A program made the position numbers and the translations under genes. Below the pieces are notes generated by a model. The model did not search any database and was not told the DNA's origin. It saw only the letters and a list, made by a program, of their open reading frames with translations. Below, piece by piece: positions 1,951 to 51,891 of a stretch of 64,000 bases of DNA (positions within the stretch are counted from its first letter, which is position 1; every line of letters begins with the position of its first letter). Source of the DNA: Halomonas sp. MCCC 1A13316 (GTDB lineage Bacteria > Pseudomonadota > Gammaproteobacteria > Pseudomonadales > Halomonadaceae); assembly GCF_014931605.1 (NCBI RefSeq), contig NZ_CP053382.1, positions 62,001 to 126,000 on the forward strand, given 5' to 3'.

Positions 1951-3645
1951 ATGCGACCCGCCGGACGCGCCGAGACCGACTCGCTCTACTTCGATTATCC
2001 CCACTTTCCCTTCGTTCGTCCCCCCGAGCTGGGTGGCAACTCTATACGTCATCGCGTAGCCATTGTCGGCGCCGGCCCGGTGGGCGTTACCGCGGCGCTG
2101 GAGCTGGCGCGCCACGGCATCGAGAGCGTGGTACTCGACGACAAGGCCACCGTCAACGACGGCTCGCGGGCGATCTGCGTCTCCCGCCACAGTCTCGAGA
2201 TCCTGCAGCAGCTCGATGTCGACGCACCTTTCGTGGAGAAGGGCCTGGGCTGGACCCGGGGGCGCACCTACTTCCGCGACCGCGAGATCTTTCGCTTCGA
2301 GATGCCCCACTCCGAGCAGGAGCGCTTCCCGCCGATGATCAACCTGCAGCAGCAGTACATCGAGCAGTTCCTGATCGACAAGGTCGCAATGAGCGGCTTT
2401 GTCGAGAGCGGGCTTGTCGAGCTGCGCTGGCAGAGCCCGGTGACCAGCGTGAGCCAGGACGCAAGCGGCGTCACCCTCGACGTGACCACCCCCGAGGGCG
2501 ACTACCGCCTCGAATGCGACTACCTGTTGGCCGCCGACGGCGCCCGCAGCGTGGTGCGCAAGGCGCTGGGCCAGGCGCTGCACGGCGAGGCCTACGAGGG
2601 GCGCTACGTGATCGCCGACATTCGCCTGCGCTCCGATTTCCCCACCGAGCGGCGGGCCTTCTTCCACTCCCGTGCCCTTCCCGACACCACCATCCTGGTG
2701 CACAAGCAGCCCGATGACATCTGGCGCATCGACTACCAGCTGGGTCCCGATGAGGATCCTGAAGCGGCGGTAGAGGAGGCCAACATTCGCGCCAGGGTCG
2801 ACCTGATCGTGCGCGACGTGCTGGGTGAAAGCGAGGCGTGGGAACTGGAGTGGTGGAGCCTCTACAAGGCCCACACCCTGGCGCTGGACGACTATCGCCA
2901 TAGCCGGGTGCTGTTCATCGGCGACAGCGCTCACCTGGTGCCGATTTTCGGCGTGCGAGGGCTCAATAACGGCTTGGCCGACGCCGCCAACGCCGGCTGG
3001 AAGCTGGCTTGGGTACTGCAGGGCCGGGCGCCGGAGCGGCTGCTCGACAGCTACAGCCCCGAGCGGCGCGGCGCCACCCTGGACGTCTTCGCCAACGCCG
3101 GCAAGAGCACCCGCTTCATGACCCCGCCGAGCCGCGGCTACCGGCTGATGCGCGATGCCGCCCTGACGCTGGCGCTTGCCAACGACTACGCCAGCGGCTT
3201 CGCCAATCCGCGCCAGGTCACGCCCTATACCTACGCTGAGAGCCCGCTGACGCTGGCCGGTAGTGGTGACTTTGCCGACGGGCCGATCCCCGGAGCGCCG
3301 CTGTTCAATCGTCGCCTGGGCGAGGATGACTTCCTGCTCGACCACCTGGGCAGCGGCTTCACCCTGCTGCACTTCAGCGTGGATGGCCGTGTCGACGCCG
3401 AGCTGGCCGATCGCCTGGCCGCATTGCAATTCCAGGGCCAGCCCATCGAGCTGCTGCGCGTGGCCCGCGGACCGGGTGCAGAGGGAGCCTTGTTCGATCG
3501 GGATGGCAGCCTGTTCGAGGCCTATGGCGCCGAGCCGGGCTGCGCCTACCTGGTGCGTCCCGATCGCCACGTAGCGGCGCGCTGGAAACGCCTCGCTTCC
3601 GGCGACCTCGACGCCGCCCTCACAACTGCCTTGGGAGGAGAATGA
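1951..3645 (+). CDS. FAD-dependent aromatic hydroxylase, MhaA-like (copy 2)
   Basis: 564-residue class A flavoprotein monooxygenase. Visible motifs: FAD-binding GAGPVGVTAALELARHGI near residue 38, the DG-type segment LLAADGARSVVRKALG around 193, and FAD-contact GDSAHLVPIFGVRGLNNG around 325. A C-terminal thioredoxin-like extension ends in YLVRPDRHVAARW. It is a clear paralogue of the 570-residue protein at 13628-15340, and both are followed by a roughly 70-residue partner. In Pseudomonas putida the two-component MhaAB enzyme (about 63 kDa flavoprotein plus a small coupling protein) turns 3-hydroxyphenylacetate into homogentisate. Sizes and gene order match here, but this copy lies away from the homogentisate operon, so its substrate is open. 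Start ATG 1951 has AGGAG 7 nt upstream. Confidence 0.82.
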   Translation: MRPAGRAETDSLYFDYPHFPFVRPPELGGNSIRHRVAIVGAGPVGVTAALELARHGIESVVLDDKATVNDGSRAICVSRHSLEILQQLDVDAPFVEKGLGWTRGRTYFRDREIFRFEMPHSEQERFPPMINLQQQYIEQFLIDKVAMSGFVESGLVELRWQSPVTSVSQDASGVTLDVTTPEGDYRLECDYLLAADGARSVVRKALGQALHGEAYEGRYVIADIRLRSDFPTERRAFFHSRALPDTTILVHKQPDDIWRIDYQLGPDEDPEAAVEEANIRARVDLIVRDVLGESEAWELEWWSLYKAHTLALDDYRHSRVLFIGDSAHLVPIFGVRGLNNGLADAANAGWKLAWVLQGRAPERLLDSYSPERRGATLDVFANAGKSTRFMTPPSRGYRLMRDAALTLALANDYASGFANPRQVTPYTYAESPLTLAGSGDFADGPIPGAPLFNRRLGEDDFLLDHLGSGFTLLHFSVDGRVDAELADRLAALQFQGQPIELLRVARGPGAEGALFDRDGSLFEAYGAEPGCAYLVRPDRHVAARWKRLASGDLDAALTTALGGE

Positions 3646-7010: not shown

Positions 7011-8276
7011 CTACGAGCGTGCCTGGCTGGCGGCGGCCGCCTGGCTGGCCGGACGTACCAGTAACAGGTAAGCCACCAGGGAAAGCACACCGCCGAGGCC
7101 GATGGAGATGGCCATGGTCAGCGAGGTGCCGTCATGAAACCGACCGACCAGCGCCCCGCCAAGGGCGGCGATGGTCATCTGCAGGAAGCCGAACAGCGAG
7201 GAGGCGGAGCCGGCGCACTGTGGGTTGGGCGCCAGCGCGCCGGACATGCTTTGGGGCATCACGATACCGAAGCCGACCAGGAACAGGATATGCGGACCGA
7301 TCACCGCCCACGGCGTGTAGACGCCTGCCGCCGCGAGGCCCGCCATGATCGTACCGGCCAAGGCGCAGATCGCCGTGGCCAGCAACAGCAGGCGATCGCG
7401 ACCCAGGCGGTGACTGTAGCGGCCGCTGACCAGGGTGCCGCTGAAGAAGCCGGCGACGATCAAGGTGAAGCCAATCCCGTAGCCGAAGGGCGACATGCCC
7501 ATGAATTCGATCAGCACGAAGGAGGAACCGGACAGAAACGCGAACAGGCCGGCGAAGCCGCTGGCGTTGACCAGCGTATAGCCCATGAAGGCGCTCTGGC
7601 CGAGCAGCATGCGGTAGTTGCGCAGGATGGTGGCAGGATGCACCGACTGGCGATTCTCCCGCGCCAGCGGCTCCGGCATGAGAAAGGCAAGCACCAGTAA
7701 CATTGCCGCGGCATACACTGTCAGCAGCAGGAAGATCGATTCCCAGCCGAAGAAGAGCAGCAGGCCGGCCCCGACGATGGGAGCAAGCGCCGGGGCAAGC
7801 GCCATGGTGCTCGCCATGTAAGAGAGCACGCGTCCGGCTTCGATGGGGCCATGAATGTCACGTACCGCGGCACGCCCCAGCACCGGGCCGGCGGCACCGC
7901 CCAGAGCCTGCAGGAAGCGACCGGCCAGCAACCACTCGATGCTGGGGGCGAAGGCGCACAGCAGGCTCGCCAGTAGGAACAGGCCGAAGCCGGCGACCAT
8001 GACCGGCTTGCGGCCGAAACGGTCGGAAATCGGGCCGCAGAACAGCTGTGCCACGGCGAAGCCGGCCATGTACAGGCTTAGCGTCAACTGGATCTGGTCG
8101 GGACCGGTATCGAGCGCCTCGGCCATCGCCGGCATGGCGGGCAGATACATGTCGGTCGCCAGTGGGCCCAGTGCGGTCAGCGCCGCAAGGGTGATCACCG
8201 TAGCGGGGGACTTCAGCCTCAGCACATCGATGTCTCCAGGAGAAAGGCGTTCAATGACCGTCAGGCGATTTACCAT
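7011..8276 (-). CDS. Bcr/CflA family multidrug efflux MFS transporter
   Basis: 421-residue drug:H+ antiporter with 12 predicted membrane segments. Recognisable Bcr/CflA signature: LATDMYLPAMPAMAEAL after the first helix, GPISDRFGRKPVMVAGF in loop 2-3, and FLQALGGAAGPVLGRAAVRD in helix 4. Chloramphenicol, bicyclomycin or sulfonamide-type compounds are the usual family substrates. First gene of a pair with the MFS gene at 5800-7008. No regulator is adjacent, and about 240 bp of non-coding sequence separates it from the repeat protein at 8521. Confidence 0.9.
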   Translation of the reverse strand: MVNRLTVIERLSPGDIDVLRLKSPATVITLAALTALGPLATDMYLPAMPAMAEALDTGPDQIQLTLSLYMAGFAVAQLFCGPISDRFGRKPVMVAGFGLFLLASLLCAFAPSIEWLLAGRFLQALGGAAGPVLGRAAVRDIHGPIEAGRVLSYMASTMALAPALAPIVGAGLLLFFGWESIFLLLTVYAAAMLLVLAFLMPEPLARENRQSVHPATILRNYRMLLGQSAFMGYTLVNASGFAGLFAFLSGSSFVLIEFMGMSPFGYGIGFTLIVAGFFSGTLVSGRYSHRLGRDRLLLLATAICALAGTIMAGLAAAGVYTPWAVIGPHILFLVGFGIVMPQSMSGALAPNPQCAGSASSLFGFLQMTIAALGGALVGRFHDGTSLTMAISIGLGGVLSLVAYLLLVRPASQAAAASQARS

Positions 8277-49844: not shown

Positions 49845-49999
49845 TCACACGCACAAGAACACTGATCGTCCGCTCTTGGCCGTTAGCAGTCTTTGTTGTG
49901 ATATCGCATTATTGGCTAGATAAGGCTTGCCGTTTGATTAAGCGTAACTAGAACCACAAATGCTTAAGAGCATGGCTTTGCGCTCAGCCGGTGGAGCGG

Positions 50000-50135
50000 A
50001 AACGAAAGGCCCGGCCTTGCGGCCGGGCTGGATCTTCGCTTCCTTACATCCTCCTCGGGCATCCTTCCGACCCGAGCGTCCTTGGATTGAGTCGTCCTGA
50101 CTCGTCGTCCCTGGCTGAGCCTCCGTGCTCAGTAC
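50000..50135 (-). ncRNA. CsrB/RsmZ-like regulatory RNA, copy 1
   Basis: The minus-strand transcript would be about 136 nt with nine GGA motifs. Stem-loops present GGA in the loop: CTGAGC-ACGGAG-GCTCAG, GAGTC-AGGAC-GACTC, and CTCGGG-TCGGAAGGATG-CCCGAG. Unpaired linkers carry AGGGA, AAGGA, GGAGGA and AAGGA. It ends in terminator GCCCGGCC-GCAA-GGCCGGGC plus CTTTCGTTT. This is the layout of RNAs that sequester the translational regulator CsrA/RsmA. About 90 bp upstream is a perfect GacA box. A close copy lies at 51611-51745. Confidence 0.85.
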
Positions 50136-50476
50136 GCCTCTAGTGTGCCAACTAGGGCAGCCTTGTGACGTTAACCTGGCGCAAGCGGCGTGTAAGATAT
50201 TGCCGATAAATTTTGTAAGACATGGCTTACAAGATGTTCGATTCGGCCTCCCGTCGGTCGGGCCCGGTGCGGCCCAGTGCTTCCCTGTCGTCATCGGACG
50301 GGCACGCAGCAGCTTGCCAGTGGCCGCGGGGCGGCCAGGCTCACAGGGGTATCGGTGGTGTCGAGTGTCGTGCGTAAGATTCGTGATGATTGACGGCTTG
50401 CCGCGCGAGCTGCCTCCCGCGCTCTCAAGCCGTCAATGAGGGGAGGGCGCAGCTGCTGTTGAGGCAAGCAGAGCAG
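50136..50476. other. sRNA promoter region and hairpin after the hydrolase gene
   Basis: 340 bp without a gene. It holds the upstream region of sRNA copy 1: a block GTTGGCACACTAGAGGC at about 50136-50151 shared with copy 2, GGTTAACGTCA shared with copy 2, and the GacA box at 50214-50231. It also holds a long hairpin TTGACGGCTTG/CAAGCCGTCAA (50390-50436) 41 bp beyond the hydrolase stop, probably its terminator although no U-tract follows. Confidence 0.6.
50214..50231 (-). promoter_or_regulatory. GacA/UvrY binding site upstream of sRNA copy 1
   Basis: TGTAAG-ACATGG-CTTACA, an exact match to the TGTAAGN6CTTACA element known upstream of rsm/csr small RNA genes. It is centred about 87 bp before the likely 5' end of the sRNA. 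Confidence 0.85.
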
Positions 50477-51337
50477 TTATTGATTGAGGGTACTGTCCAG
50501 CAATAGCAGCGCAGCCTGCCAGGAGGAGGCGTCGGCGGCGGCATTGTAGCCAATCGGCAAGCCATGTTCTTCGCTCAGCGCGTCGGCGCCGGGGTTGGTG
50601 AAGCCATGGAGGGCCTGGGGATAGGTAATGACATCGACATCGGCGCCCTGTGCCTTGAGCGCAAGCGCCATGGCTGCCAGGGTTTCACGCTTGACGAGCG
50701 AGTCCGCGCCGCCAGTATGGATCTGTACTGCACCGCTGAATTCCCCGGGAGTAGGGACAGCCGGCGTGGGATCGCCGTGAAAGCTGATAACGGCCTCGAG
50801 CGGCATGCCGGACAATGCCATGTTCATGACGACGCTGCCGCCGAAGCAGTAACCAATGGCCGCCATGCCGGTATCAGCCACGGCCGGGTGTTGGCTTAGC
50901 TGGGTCATGGCCGCTTCGAACCTGGCACGAGCGGCTGGCCAATCCTGCAAAACTTCCGAGGAGAATTCGCCCGCTTGGTCGGGATGCGTGGCGACCTGAC
51001 CACCGCCGTACATATCCACCGCCAATGCCACGAAGCCGAGAGCGGCGAGCTGGTCGGCGCGTGTGCGAGCATAATCGTCGAGCCCCCACCACTCGTGCAC
51101 CACCAGTACGGCCGGCCGTGGTTTCTCATCATTGACGTTGCGTGCCAGGTAGCCCTGGTAGGTCTCGCCTCCGGTCGTATATTCGAACACCTCGCTTTCG
51201 ACGCGCGGTCCCCAGGCCGTGAGCAATTCCGACTCGGGGTCGGTTTCGGATGCTGCCGGAGGGTTGACCTCCTGGGCGATTGCCGAGCCTGTCAGCAACC
51301 AAGCTATCAGGCACAAGAACGTGAAAAGTGTGCGCAT
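50477..51337 (-). CDS. Exported dienelactone hydrolase family protein
   Basis: 286 residues. Signal peptide MRTLFTFLCLIAWLLTGSAI with cleavage near AQA/AQE. Alpha/beta hydrolase of the DLH type: VLVVHEWWGLDDYARTRADQ, FVALAVDMYGGG, nucleophile-elbow cysteine in AAIGYCFGGSVVMNMAL, Asp in QIHTGGADSLV and His in ALHGFTNPGAD. The Cys-Asp-His triad is therefore present. Periplasmic location is unusual for DLH, but exported homologues are known. Substrate unknown. The gene lies between the two CsrB-like RNAs on the same strand; AAGGAGAG precedes ATG 51337. Confidence 0.85.
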   Translation of the reverse strand: MRTLFTFLCLIAWLLTGSAIAQEVNPPAASETDPESELLTAWGPRVESEVFEYTTGGETYQGYLARNVNDEKPRPAVLVVHEWWGLDDYARTRADQLAALGFVALAVDMYGGGQVATHPDQAGEFSSEVLQDWPAARARFEAAMTQLSQHPAVADTGMAAIGYCFGGSVVMNMALSGMPLEAVISFHGDPTPAVPTPGEFSGAVQIHTGGADSLVKRETLAAMALALKAQGADVDVITYPQALHGFTNPGADALSEEHGLPIGYNAAADASSWQAALLLLDSTLNQ

Positions 51338-51610
51338 ATGAAGCTCTCCTTGCTTATTCTTTGTCGGGTCTCGGCGGCAGGGAACGCCAGTCCCACCTTT
51401 TACTAACATAGCTGCCCTCGTAGGCCCGCGTACACCGCTACTGCCTGAGGCCCTTCAGATGGAAGGGCTCCGAGAGGTCGAAATCGCCGTCGGCTGGGGA
51501 TGGGCACGCGGCACACGACAGCCAGCATCGGCGGCAAGCGAAGAGCTACTGTAAGAGGAATGGCTTGCGCTATGGCGTGCCTATGCTGATTGGCTGGCTA
51601 CGAGAGCCCA

Positions 51611-51745
51611 AACAAAAGCCCGGCCTTGCGGCCGGGCTGGATCTTCGCTTCCTTACCTCTGCCTCGGGCATCCTTCCGACCCGAGCGTCCCTGGATATGA
51701 GTCGTCCTGACTCGTCGTCCCTGGCTGAGCCTCCGTGCTCAGTAC
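51611..51745 (-). ncRNA. CsrB/RsmZ-like regulatory RNA, copy 2
   Basis: About 135 nt, close in sequence and fold to copy 1: the same three GGA-loop hairpins (ACGGAG, AGGAC, TCGGAAGGATG loops), seven GGA motifs, and the same terminator stem followed by TTTTGTT. Differences cluster in linkers (CATATCCAGGGAC, GCAGAGGTAAGGA). It shares the upstream block TTGGCACAGTAAAGGC and TTAACGTCAGAG-like region with copy 1. A degenerate GacA-like site lies further upstream. The two RNAs flank the hydrolase gene. Confidence 0.83.
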
Positions 51746-51818
51746 GCCTTTACTGTGCCAACCCTCGACCGTCTCTGACGTTAACCTGGATCAAATTCGC
51801 ATGAAAAAGTGTTGGTTC

Positions 51819-51838
51819 TTTTTAGAAATGGCTTCAAG
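51819..51838 (-). promoter_or_regulatory. Degenerate GacA-like site upstream of sRNA copy 2
   Basis: TTTTTAGAAATGGCTTCAAG aligns with TTTTGTAAGACATGGCTTACAAG of copy 1 but has lost bases in both half-sites. Its position relative to the sRNA is equivalent. It may be weak or inactive. Confidence 0.4.
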
Positions 51839-51891
51839 GAAGGTGACTTGCGCTCGCAGCGGCTTCGGCAGTAACGGTGGATTACGCCGGC

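Follow-up and report, generated by a model that had tools for sequence, protein, structure and literature searches.

A multicopy family of predicted CsrA-sequestering RNA genes in Halomonas sp. MCCC 1A13316

In the 64,000-nucleotide stretch of the Halomonas sp. MCCC 1A13316 genome analyzed for the current report (the window), a dienelactone hydrolase family gene lies between two very similar, GGA-rich elements on the minus strand, and the question raised by this arrangement is whether the two elements are genes for small RNAs that sequester CsrA. A sequence-only reading of the window had proposed that they are, on the grounds that each element carries three hairpins with GGA in their loops, nine or seven GGA triplets in total and a terminator. 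Our examination of the minus strand between 49800 and 52100 agrees with that description in both sequence and coordinates: the elements, of ~131 nucleotides, are 95% identical over 146 query bases, their bodies contain nine (copy 1) and seven (copy 2) GGA triplets, and the predicted fold of each consists of three GGA-loop hairpins and a terminator hairpin built on GCCCGGCC (Table 1). The folding energies of the two copies correspond to z values of -2.4 to -2.95 relative to dinucleotide shuffles, and we infer transcript starts near 50139 for copy 1 and near 51749 for copy 2. Antisense matches over members of the family (49911-50034 of the window, plus strand; 2930-3024 of locus L060, minus strand) were rejected as artefacts of hairpin symmetry.

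Table 1. Features of the two RNA elements and the intervening gene (window coordinates)
Feature	Positions	Strand	Evidence
Copy 1, body, hairpin 1 to terminator	50003..50133	-	R2 116.5 bits, E 5.7e-27
Copy 1, hairpin 1, CTGAGC-ACGGAG-GCTCAG	50115..50132	-	predicted fold, 6-copy alignment, 58-member pairs
Copy 1, hairpin 2, GAGTC-AGGAC-GACTC	50089..50103	-	predicted fold; 6-, 40- and 58-row alignments
Copy 1, hairpin 3, CTCGGG-(loop with AAGGAT)-CCCGAG	50054..50076	-	predicted fold; 6-, 40- and 58-row alignments
Copy 1, terminator hairpin GCCCGGCC-GCAA-GGCCGGGC, then T-rich stretch	50009..50028	-	predicted fold, 40-row alignment
Copy 1, TTGGCA, -10-like position	50146..50151	-	alignment
Copy 1, GGTTAAC, -35-like position	50170..50176	-	alignment
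Copy 1, second GacA half-site, TCTTACA	50191..50197	-	motif scan, alignment
Copy 1, exact palindromic GacA box TGTAAGN6CTTACA, upstream	50214..50231	-	window motif scan
Dienelactone hydrolase family gene, between the copies	50477..51409	-	PF01738, E 3.3e-42
Copy 2, body	51612..51743	-	R2 120.3 bits, E 6.2e-28
Copy 2, terminator hairpin	51618..51637	-	predicted fold
Copy 2, TTGGCA, -10-like position	51756..51761	-	alignment
Copy 2, GGTTAAC	51780..51786	-	alignment
Copy 2, decayed GacA box, 8/12 letters	51819..51836	-	alignment

The hydrolase gene between the copies has an in-frame ATG at 51337 behind a good ribosome site. An HlyIII-type gene and a GTP cyclohydrolase II gene lie upstream of it on the same strand, with a divergent uroporphyrinogen decarboxylase gene. 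A dienelactone hydrolase gene is also found near window-type RNAs in several relatives; since RNAs of the proposed kind act in trans, we read no functional link into this proximity. The ribosome site of the hydrolase gene, AAGGAG, is enclosed in the loop of a short, 3-bp stem (AGC/GCT; 51341-51355, minus strand), which makes it a possible, weak candidate for a CsrA target. We do not claim the hydrolase start as a CsrA site, as ribosome sites often look similar and the stem is broken in one of six loci (the window included).

The assignment of the elements to a catalogued RNA family met with a negative result. None of the Rfam models, including those for CsrB, CsrC, RsmX, RsmY and RsmZ, gives a match at its cut-off in the window, an outcome that the sequence-only reading had itself named as one that would count against it; the best match at relaxed thresholds, to RsmY and over copy 1 only, scores 16.3 bits against a cut-off of 57, and 20 loci with members of the family likewise gave no Csr/Rsm match at the cut-off. 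For this reason we built covariance models of our own, R1 from the six copies found by a DNA search of the source genome (4,490,931 bases, one contig) and R2 from 58 members drawn from the source genome and eight other genomes, the latter set being what remained of 64 matches when six were dropped (L085 with 3 GGA, L080 with 4 GGA, L036 truncated by a contig end, L075 2010 at 27 bits, and two antisense rows). R1 detects 11 copies in the source genome at E <= 1.2e-9, and R2 detects the same 11 at 120.3 to 69.0 bits, scores that are favoured by the partial training of R2 on these very copies; the next R2 match, at 32.6 bits, is antisense to one of them. The copies begin at 112003 and 113612 (the window pair), 1141818, 1410751, 1411580, 1412221, 1413088, 1413358, 1538333, 2445405 and 4408705 in genome coordinates, so that nine are additional to the pair described in the earlier reading; together the 11 contain 82 GGA triplets. 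Weaker matches in the genome, at 1413809 (23.7 bits), 2884832 (29.3 bits, E 1.9e-4), 2305336 and elsewhere, were left uncounted, and querying plasmid sequences with copy 1 gave no match. With R2 at E <= 1e-4, matches occur in at least 140 of the 275 genomes from the bacterial family, at least 24 of them in the genus of the source genome. Because our own models recover 11 copies in one genome and members in so many others, we take the Rfam result to mean an unlisted family and not a wrong idea: judged by its sequences, the family is outside the current Rfam models although class-like in appearance.

Five of the 11 copies form an array within 2.7 kb (1410751-1413491). The interval that separates the third copy from the fourth contains a stretch of ~200 nucleotides with GGA hairpins and a terminator of its own (about 1412480-1412700; L056:8480-8700), which has no R2 match and no GacA box that we could see by eye; it is conserved in genomes G030, G032 and G012, with weaker conservation in G008, and likely encodes a twelfth CsrA-sequestering ("sponge") RNA. 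Beyond the array, the uncounted match at 1413809-1413907 (L056:9810-9908) is GGA-poor and has GGTTAAT upstream; it is perhaps a decaying copy. Also situated between two sponge RNAs of the array are a guanidine-II riboswitch (L056:7084-7134; also present in L062 and L069) and, just downstream of it, a gene for a small multidrug resistance family transporter (7155-7466). Elsewhere in the genome, the copy at 1141818-1141947 (L059:3319-3448) lies a few hundred bases upstream of what by eye is a phasin-like gene (PHA granule).

Comparison of the members allowed us to ask which features of these RNAs are maintained as their sequences diverge. In the alignment of 58 rows, 96.3% of the cells at paired positions are paired and two-sided changes occur in 18 of 23 pairs, against a shuffled mean of 10.1 (none of 500 shuffles reaches 18) and against 27-45% paired when partners are slid by 1-3 columns, although these pairing figures are favoured by the fitting of the alignment to the model. 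A MAFFT alignment of 40 rows (nine from the source genome), made from sequence only, has two-sided changes in 12 of 22 pairs. From these 40 rows RNAalifold recovers hairpins 2 and 3 and the terminator; hairpin 1 is missing from this fold and is recovered when the 6-copy alignment is used. In the 40-row fold a CC is the partner of the GG in the first linker GGA, an arrangement that is invariant in 40/40 rows and hence decides nothing. All 40 rows agree at four complete GGA triplets, and in loops 1 and 2 each position of the GGA is either invariant or conserved to at least 90%. Among the 58 members, GGA-bearing hairpin loops average 2.4 per member as compared with 0.57 in dinucleotide shuffles, and GGA triplets 7.5 as compared with 5.4. 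Single-sequence folds of the source genome's copies contain between none (1413088) and four GGA loops, with three in each member of the window pair, and an intrinsic terminator of their own accompanies family members in the folds and the 40-row alignment. One might suppose that such RNAs act mainly by base-pairing with mRNAs and bind CsrA secondarily, since conservation in the linkers and loops extends in part beyond the GGA; the fully invariant columns of the 40 rows are, however, mainly the GGA triplets and the terminator, and we consider this alternative highly improbable.

The sequences upstream of the bodies bear on how these RNAs might be controlled. The sequence-only reading had noted an exact TGTAAGN6CTTACA motif, published as the GacA/UvrY box (PMC3171408, PMC11837529), before copy 1 and a decayed version at the same relative place before copy 2. 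The former is the single mismatch-free occurrence in the window; at up to three mismatches there are 10 matches where 7.6 are expected, so that only the exact box counts. The remnant at copy 2 shares the alignment columns of the copy 1 box, at about the same relative place, with eight of the 12 letters retained. To these we can add the TCTTACA half-site of copy 1 and the GGTTAAC sequences of both copies. Across the family, TCTTACA (at most one mismatch) is found at -66 to -60 from the body in 42 of 58 members, compared with a mean of 0.5 and a maximum of 3 after letter shuffling, and 31 of the 58 have a full box (at least 10/12 letters) in the upstream stretch, compared with a mean of 0.3 and a maximum of 3 in the shuffles. 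These full boxes are concentrated around -98 and -73, which implies that some members have two GacA sites. Nearer to the body are a GGTTAAC-like sequence at about -42 (37/58 members have GTTAAC there with no more than one mismatch) and, at about -18, an element of the GCTGTCAT/GCTGCCAT type; this -10-like column reads TTGGCA(C) in copies 1 and 2, a poor sigma-70 -10, and TGTCAT, TGCCAT or TACCTT in other members.

It is this last column that had suggested a sigma-54 promoter. The sequence TTGGCAC-N6-GGC is indeed present in both window copies, and its GG-N10-GC spacing is appropriate for initiation of sigma-54-dependent RNAs. The promoter reading itself fails because only 7 of the 58 members retain the spacing and, within the window-type clade, 5 of 9 rows do; in addition, the same column is occupied by a -10-like element in other members, and the implied start would cut into hairpin 1. 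We therefore regard sigma-54-dependent initiation here as extremely improbable.

GacA sites are unevenly distributed among the source genome's own copies. A box of at least 10/12 letters precedes six of the 11, whereas at three (copy 2, 1412221 and 1413358) both that box and the half-site are lacking. The clade that includes 1413358 (support 100/99, five genomes) has no member with more than eight of the 12 box letters, although in its G009 member six of the seven half-site letters are found at -45, which is not the usual position. By eye, the members of this clade (L056:9359-9492 and relatives in G030, G032, G012 and G009) have a common upstream motif, CATGAAnTTT...CATT, followed by TAGGCT; the motif is possibly the site of a different regulator.

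The partners that a Gac-Csr cascade would demand are encoded in the same genome at their usual loci: csrA, a single-copy gene for a protein of 66 aa, is located beside lysC, and gacA, for a protein of 218 aa that is 60% identical to a Pseudomonas-type GacA query, beside uvrC. The absence of either would have told against the earlier proposal, and both are present. Over 57 residues CsrA is nearly identical to its closest matches among solved structures, CsrA/RsmA chains such as 1vpz and 7yr6, which we take to be Pseudomonas proteins. A single CsrA is encoded by 28 of the 32 genomes tested, including 23 of 23 in the genus of the source genome (itself counted); G165 and G170 have three each, and G175 and G211 two each. 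In three genomes of genus g35, at loci L152 (G175), L153 (G165) and L154 (G170), an extra csrA adjoins a divergent sponge RNA of the family, and these neighbours are predicted from the sequences to be regulator-antagonist pairs.

The counts that describe the distribution of the family, including the zeros, are lower bounds, because only part of the first-look candidates was scored (per genome, 150 in the source genome with R1 and R2, 131 in 26 chosen genomes, 12 in the 275 of the bacterial family and 9 in a 369-genome sample of the class). In the class sample, at least 15 genomes match R2 at E <= 1e-4, namely the source genome, one other of its bacterial family and 13 of other families; none of the 13 exceeds 41.4 bits, as against 69.0 for the weakest of the source genome's copies. 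In the 26 chosen genomes (E <= 1e-5), no match was found in seven, and there were at least 11 in G012, 14 in G175 and 15 in G170; G165 has 20, of which 12 are listed one by one and the others may include antisense artefacts. Exact 28-base matches extend to Billgrantia desiderata, B. kenyensis, B. ethanolica, B. lactosivorans, B. antri, B. montanilacus, B. bachuensis, Halomonas alkalisoli and a Halomonas MAG, which makes Billgrantia the most likely affiliation of the window. Genomes without the RNA family need not lack the cascade, since a GacA-like protein (E <= 1e-60) is encoded by 252 of the 275 genomes. A search for GacA boxes in 11 genomes without the family gave 31 places and a reversed control pattern gave 29, so that as a set these boxes do not rise above chance. 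Among 19 of the 31 places that were inspected are two, L126 in G085 and L122 in G007 (same broad genus, no family member), at which a different and longer GGA-rich, CsrB-like RNA lies about 200 nucleotides beyond the box-like site; the two RNAs are alike by eye.

The age of the expansion can be judged from a tree of the 58 members, built on each body together with the 110 bases upstream of it. Overall, the labels of the genomes are unclustered on this tree (39 changes against a shuffled mean of 40.1), as are the source genome's copies (10 against 10.3), with the exception of G009 (4 changes against 5.8, with as few in 6 of 500 shuffles), in which some younger duplication is indicated. On starred branches of the tree, several orthologous types are each represented in more than one species. 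As the source genome's copies for the most part branch among those of other species, the expansion is old: on this evidence it predates these species and has been maintained since. Such a history is difficult to reconcile with a dispersed, non-functional repeat (transposon-derived or REP-like) whose hairpins are incidental. The scattering of many copies through one genome is what a repeat would produce, but the divergent copies retain GGA and covarying stems while other bases change, most have promoter elements at a fixed distance as well as a terminator, and the paralogue types are common to several species instead of arising in within-species bursts. We find the repeat explanation hardly credible at all.

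Taken with the covarying hairpins, the largely invariant GGA, the GacA sites at fixed distances, the terminators and the presence of csrA and gacA, the original proposal of CsrA-sequestering RNAs is well supported, and that the family consists of such RNAs, most of them GacA-activated, is very probably correct and the best explanation that we have. Counted against it are the lack of an Rfam match at the cut-off, the failure of the 40-row fold to recover hairpin 1, the copy at 1413088 without a GGA loop in its fold, the lack of a usable GacA box at copy 2 and the poor sigma-70 -10 of both window copies. Transcription, GacA dependence, CsrA binding and the effect on mRNAs are what we infer from known Csr/Rsm biology. 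Both window elements would be genes for ~135-nucleotide regulatory RNAs of the CsrB/RsmZ functional class, in which several GGA-loop hairpins per RNA would hold CsrA dimers and thereby free CsrA-repressed mRNAs. Copy 1 would be switched on by GacS/GacA through its exact box and second half-site; copy 2 would have lost most of its GacA input, and its transcription would probably depend on the basal GGTTAAC/-10-like promoter or on another regulator. The two would be part of a pool of 11 model-recognised copies, plus the longer diverged member of the array, facing a single CsrA.

A broader proposition is that in Billgrantia and some related Halomonadaceae one CsrA is tuned by about a dozen ancient, separately inherited and differently wired sponge RNAs, with a GacA-driven majority (often with two sites), box-less copies and an array-borne clade with a different upstream motif. 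We put it forward tentatively, our judgement of it falling just short of even. If it is true, the sponge pool would be a multi-input integrator and not a set of redundant copies of one output. Redundant dosage and separate inputs can now be tested against each other, because orthologous types with and without GacA boxes are available for comparison.

The mechanism itself is already known, and what is new here is a family that Rfam does not list, the large number of its copies relative to one CsrA, their array and the conservation of a type without a GacA box. In the open-access literature on Csr/Rsm RNAs in Halomonas or Billgrantia we found no report of the family. For Halomonas anticariensis, which shares with the source genome both the bacterial family and the GacS/GacA cascade, the RNA partners were given as unknown in a 2020 review (PMC7366521), and the CsrA of Halomonas hydrothermalis has been modelled in a paper in whose available text the word CsrB is absent (PMC12889724). 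The RNAs described here are thus candidate partners for the Gac-Csr cascade of the Halomonadaceae.

Among characterized systems, the GacA-activated RsmX, RsmY and RsmZ of Pseudomonas (110-124 nucleotides) are similar in length, GGA hairpin loops, GacA box and tandem duplicates, as for example the tandem rsmX-1 and rsmX-2 of P. brassicacearum (PMC7911923); unlike them, the present family has no match at the Rfam cut-offs. The csrB1 and csrB2 genes of Shewanella oneidensis, each with a GacA/UvrY box, also flank a single gene, but that gene is a transposase, the RNAs are about 420 nucleotides each and there are only two copies (PMC3171408). In general, one to seven functional copies of such RNAs have been reported (PMC7366521). 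In P. syringae the number of Rsm RNAs reaches seven and that of RsmX five, three to five RsmA homologues are predicted, and RNA number is reportedly correlated with protein number (PMC7911923), in keeping with the suggestion of Moll et al. (cited in PMC7911923) that the number of sponges follows the number of CsrA-type proteins. About a dozen sponge genes with a single CsrA (11 copies and one likely) is an unusually large set, and such extreme multiplicity does not fit that suggestion. The closest parallel in size is the multigene set of Azotobacter vinelandii under GacA and with RsmA, listed as RsmZ1-7 and RsmY1-2 in Table 1 of PMC7366521 and as RsmZ1-7 and RsmY in PMC4824345: nine names there, as compared with the 11 copies plus one described here, which include an orthologous type without a GacA box and an array of five copies plus one.
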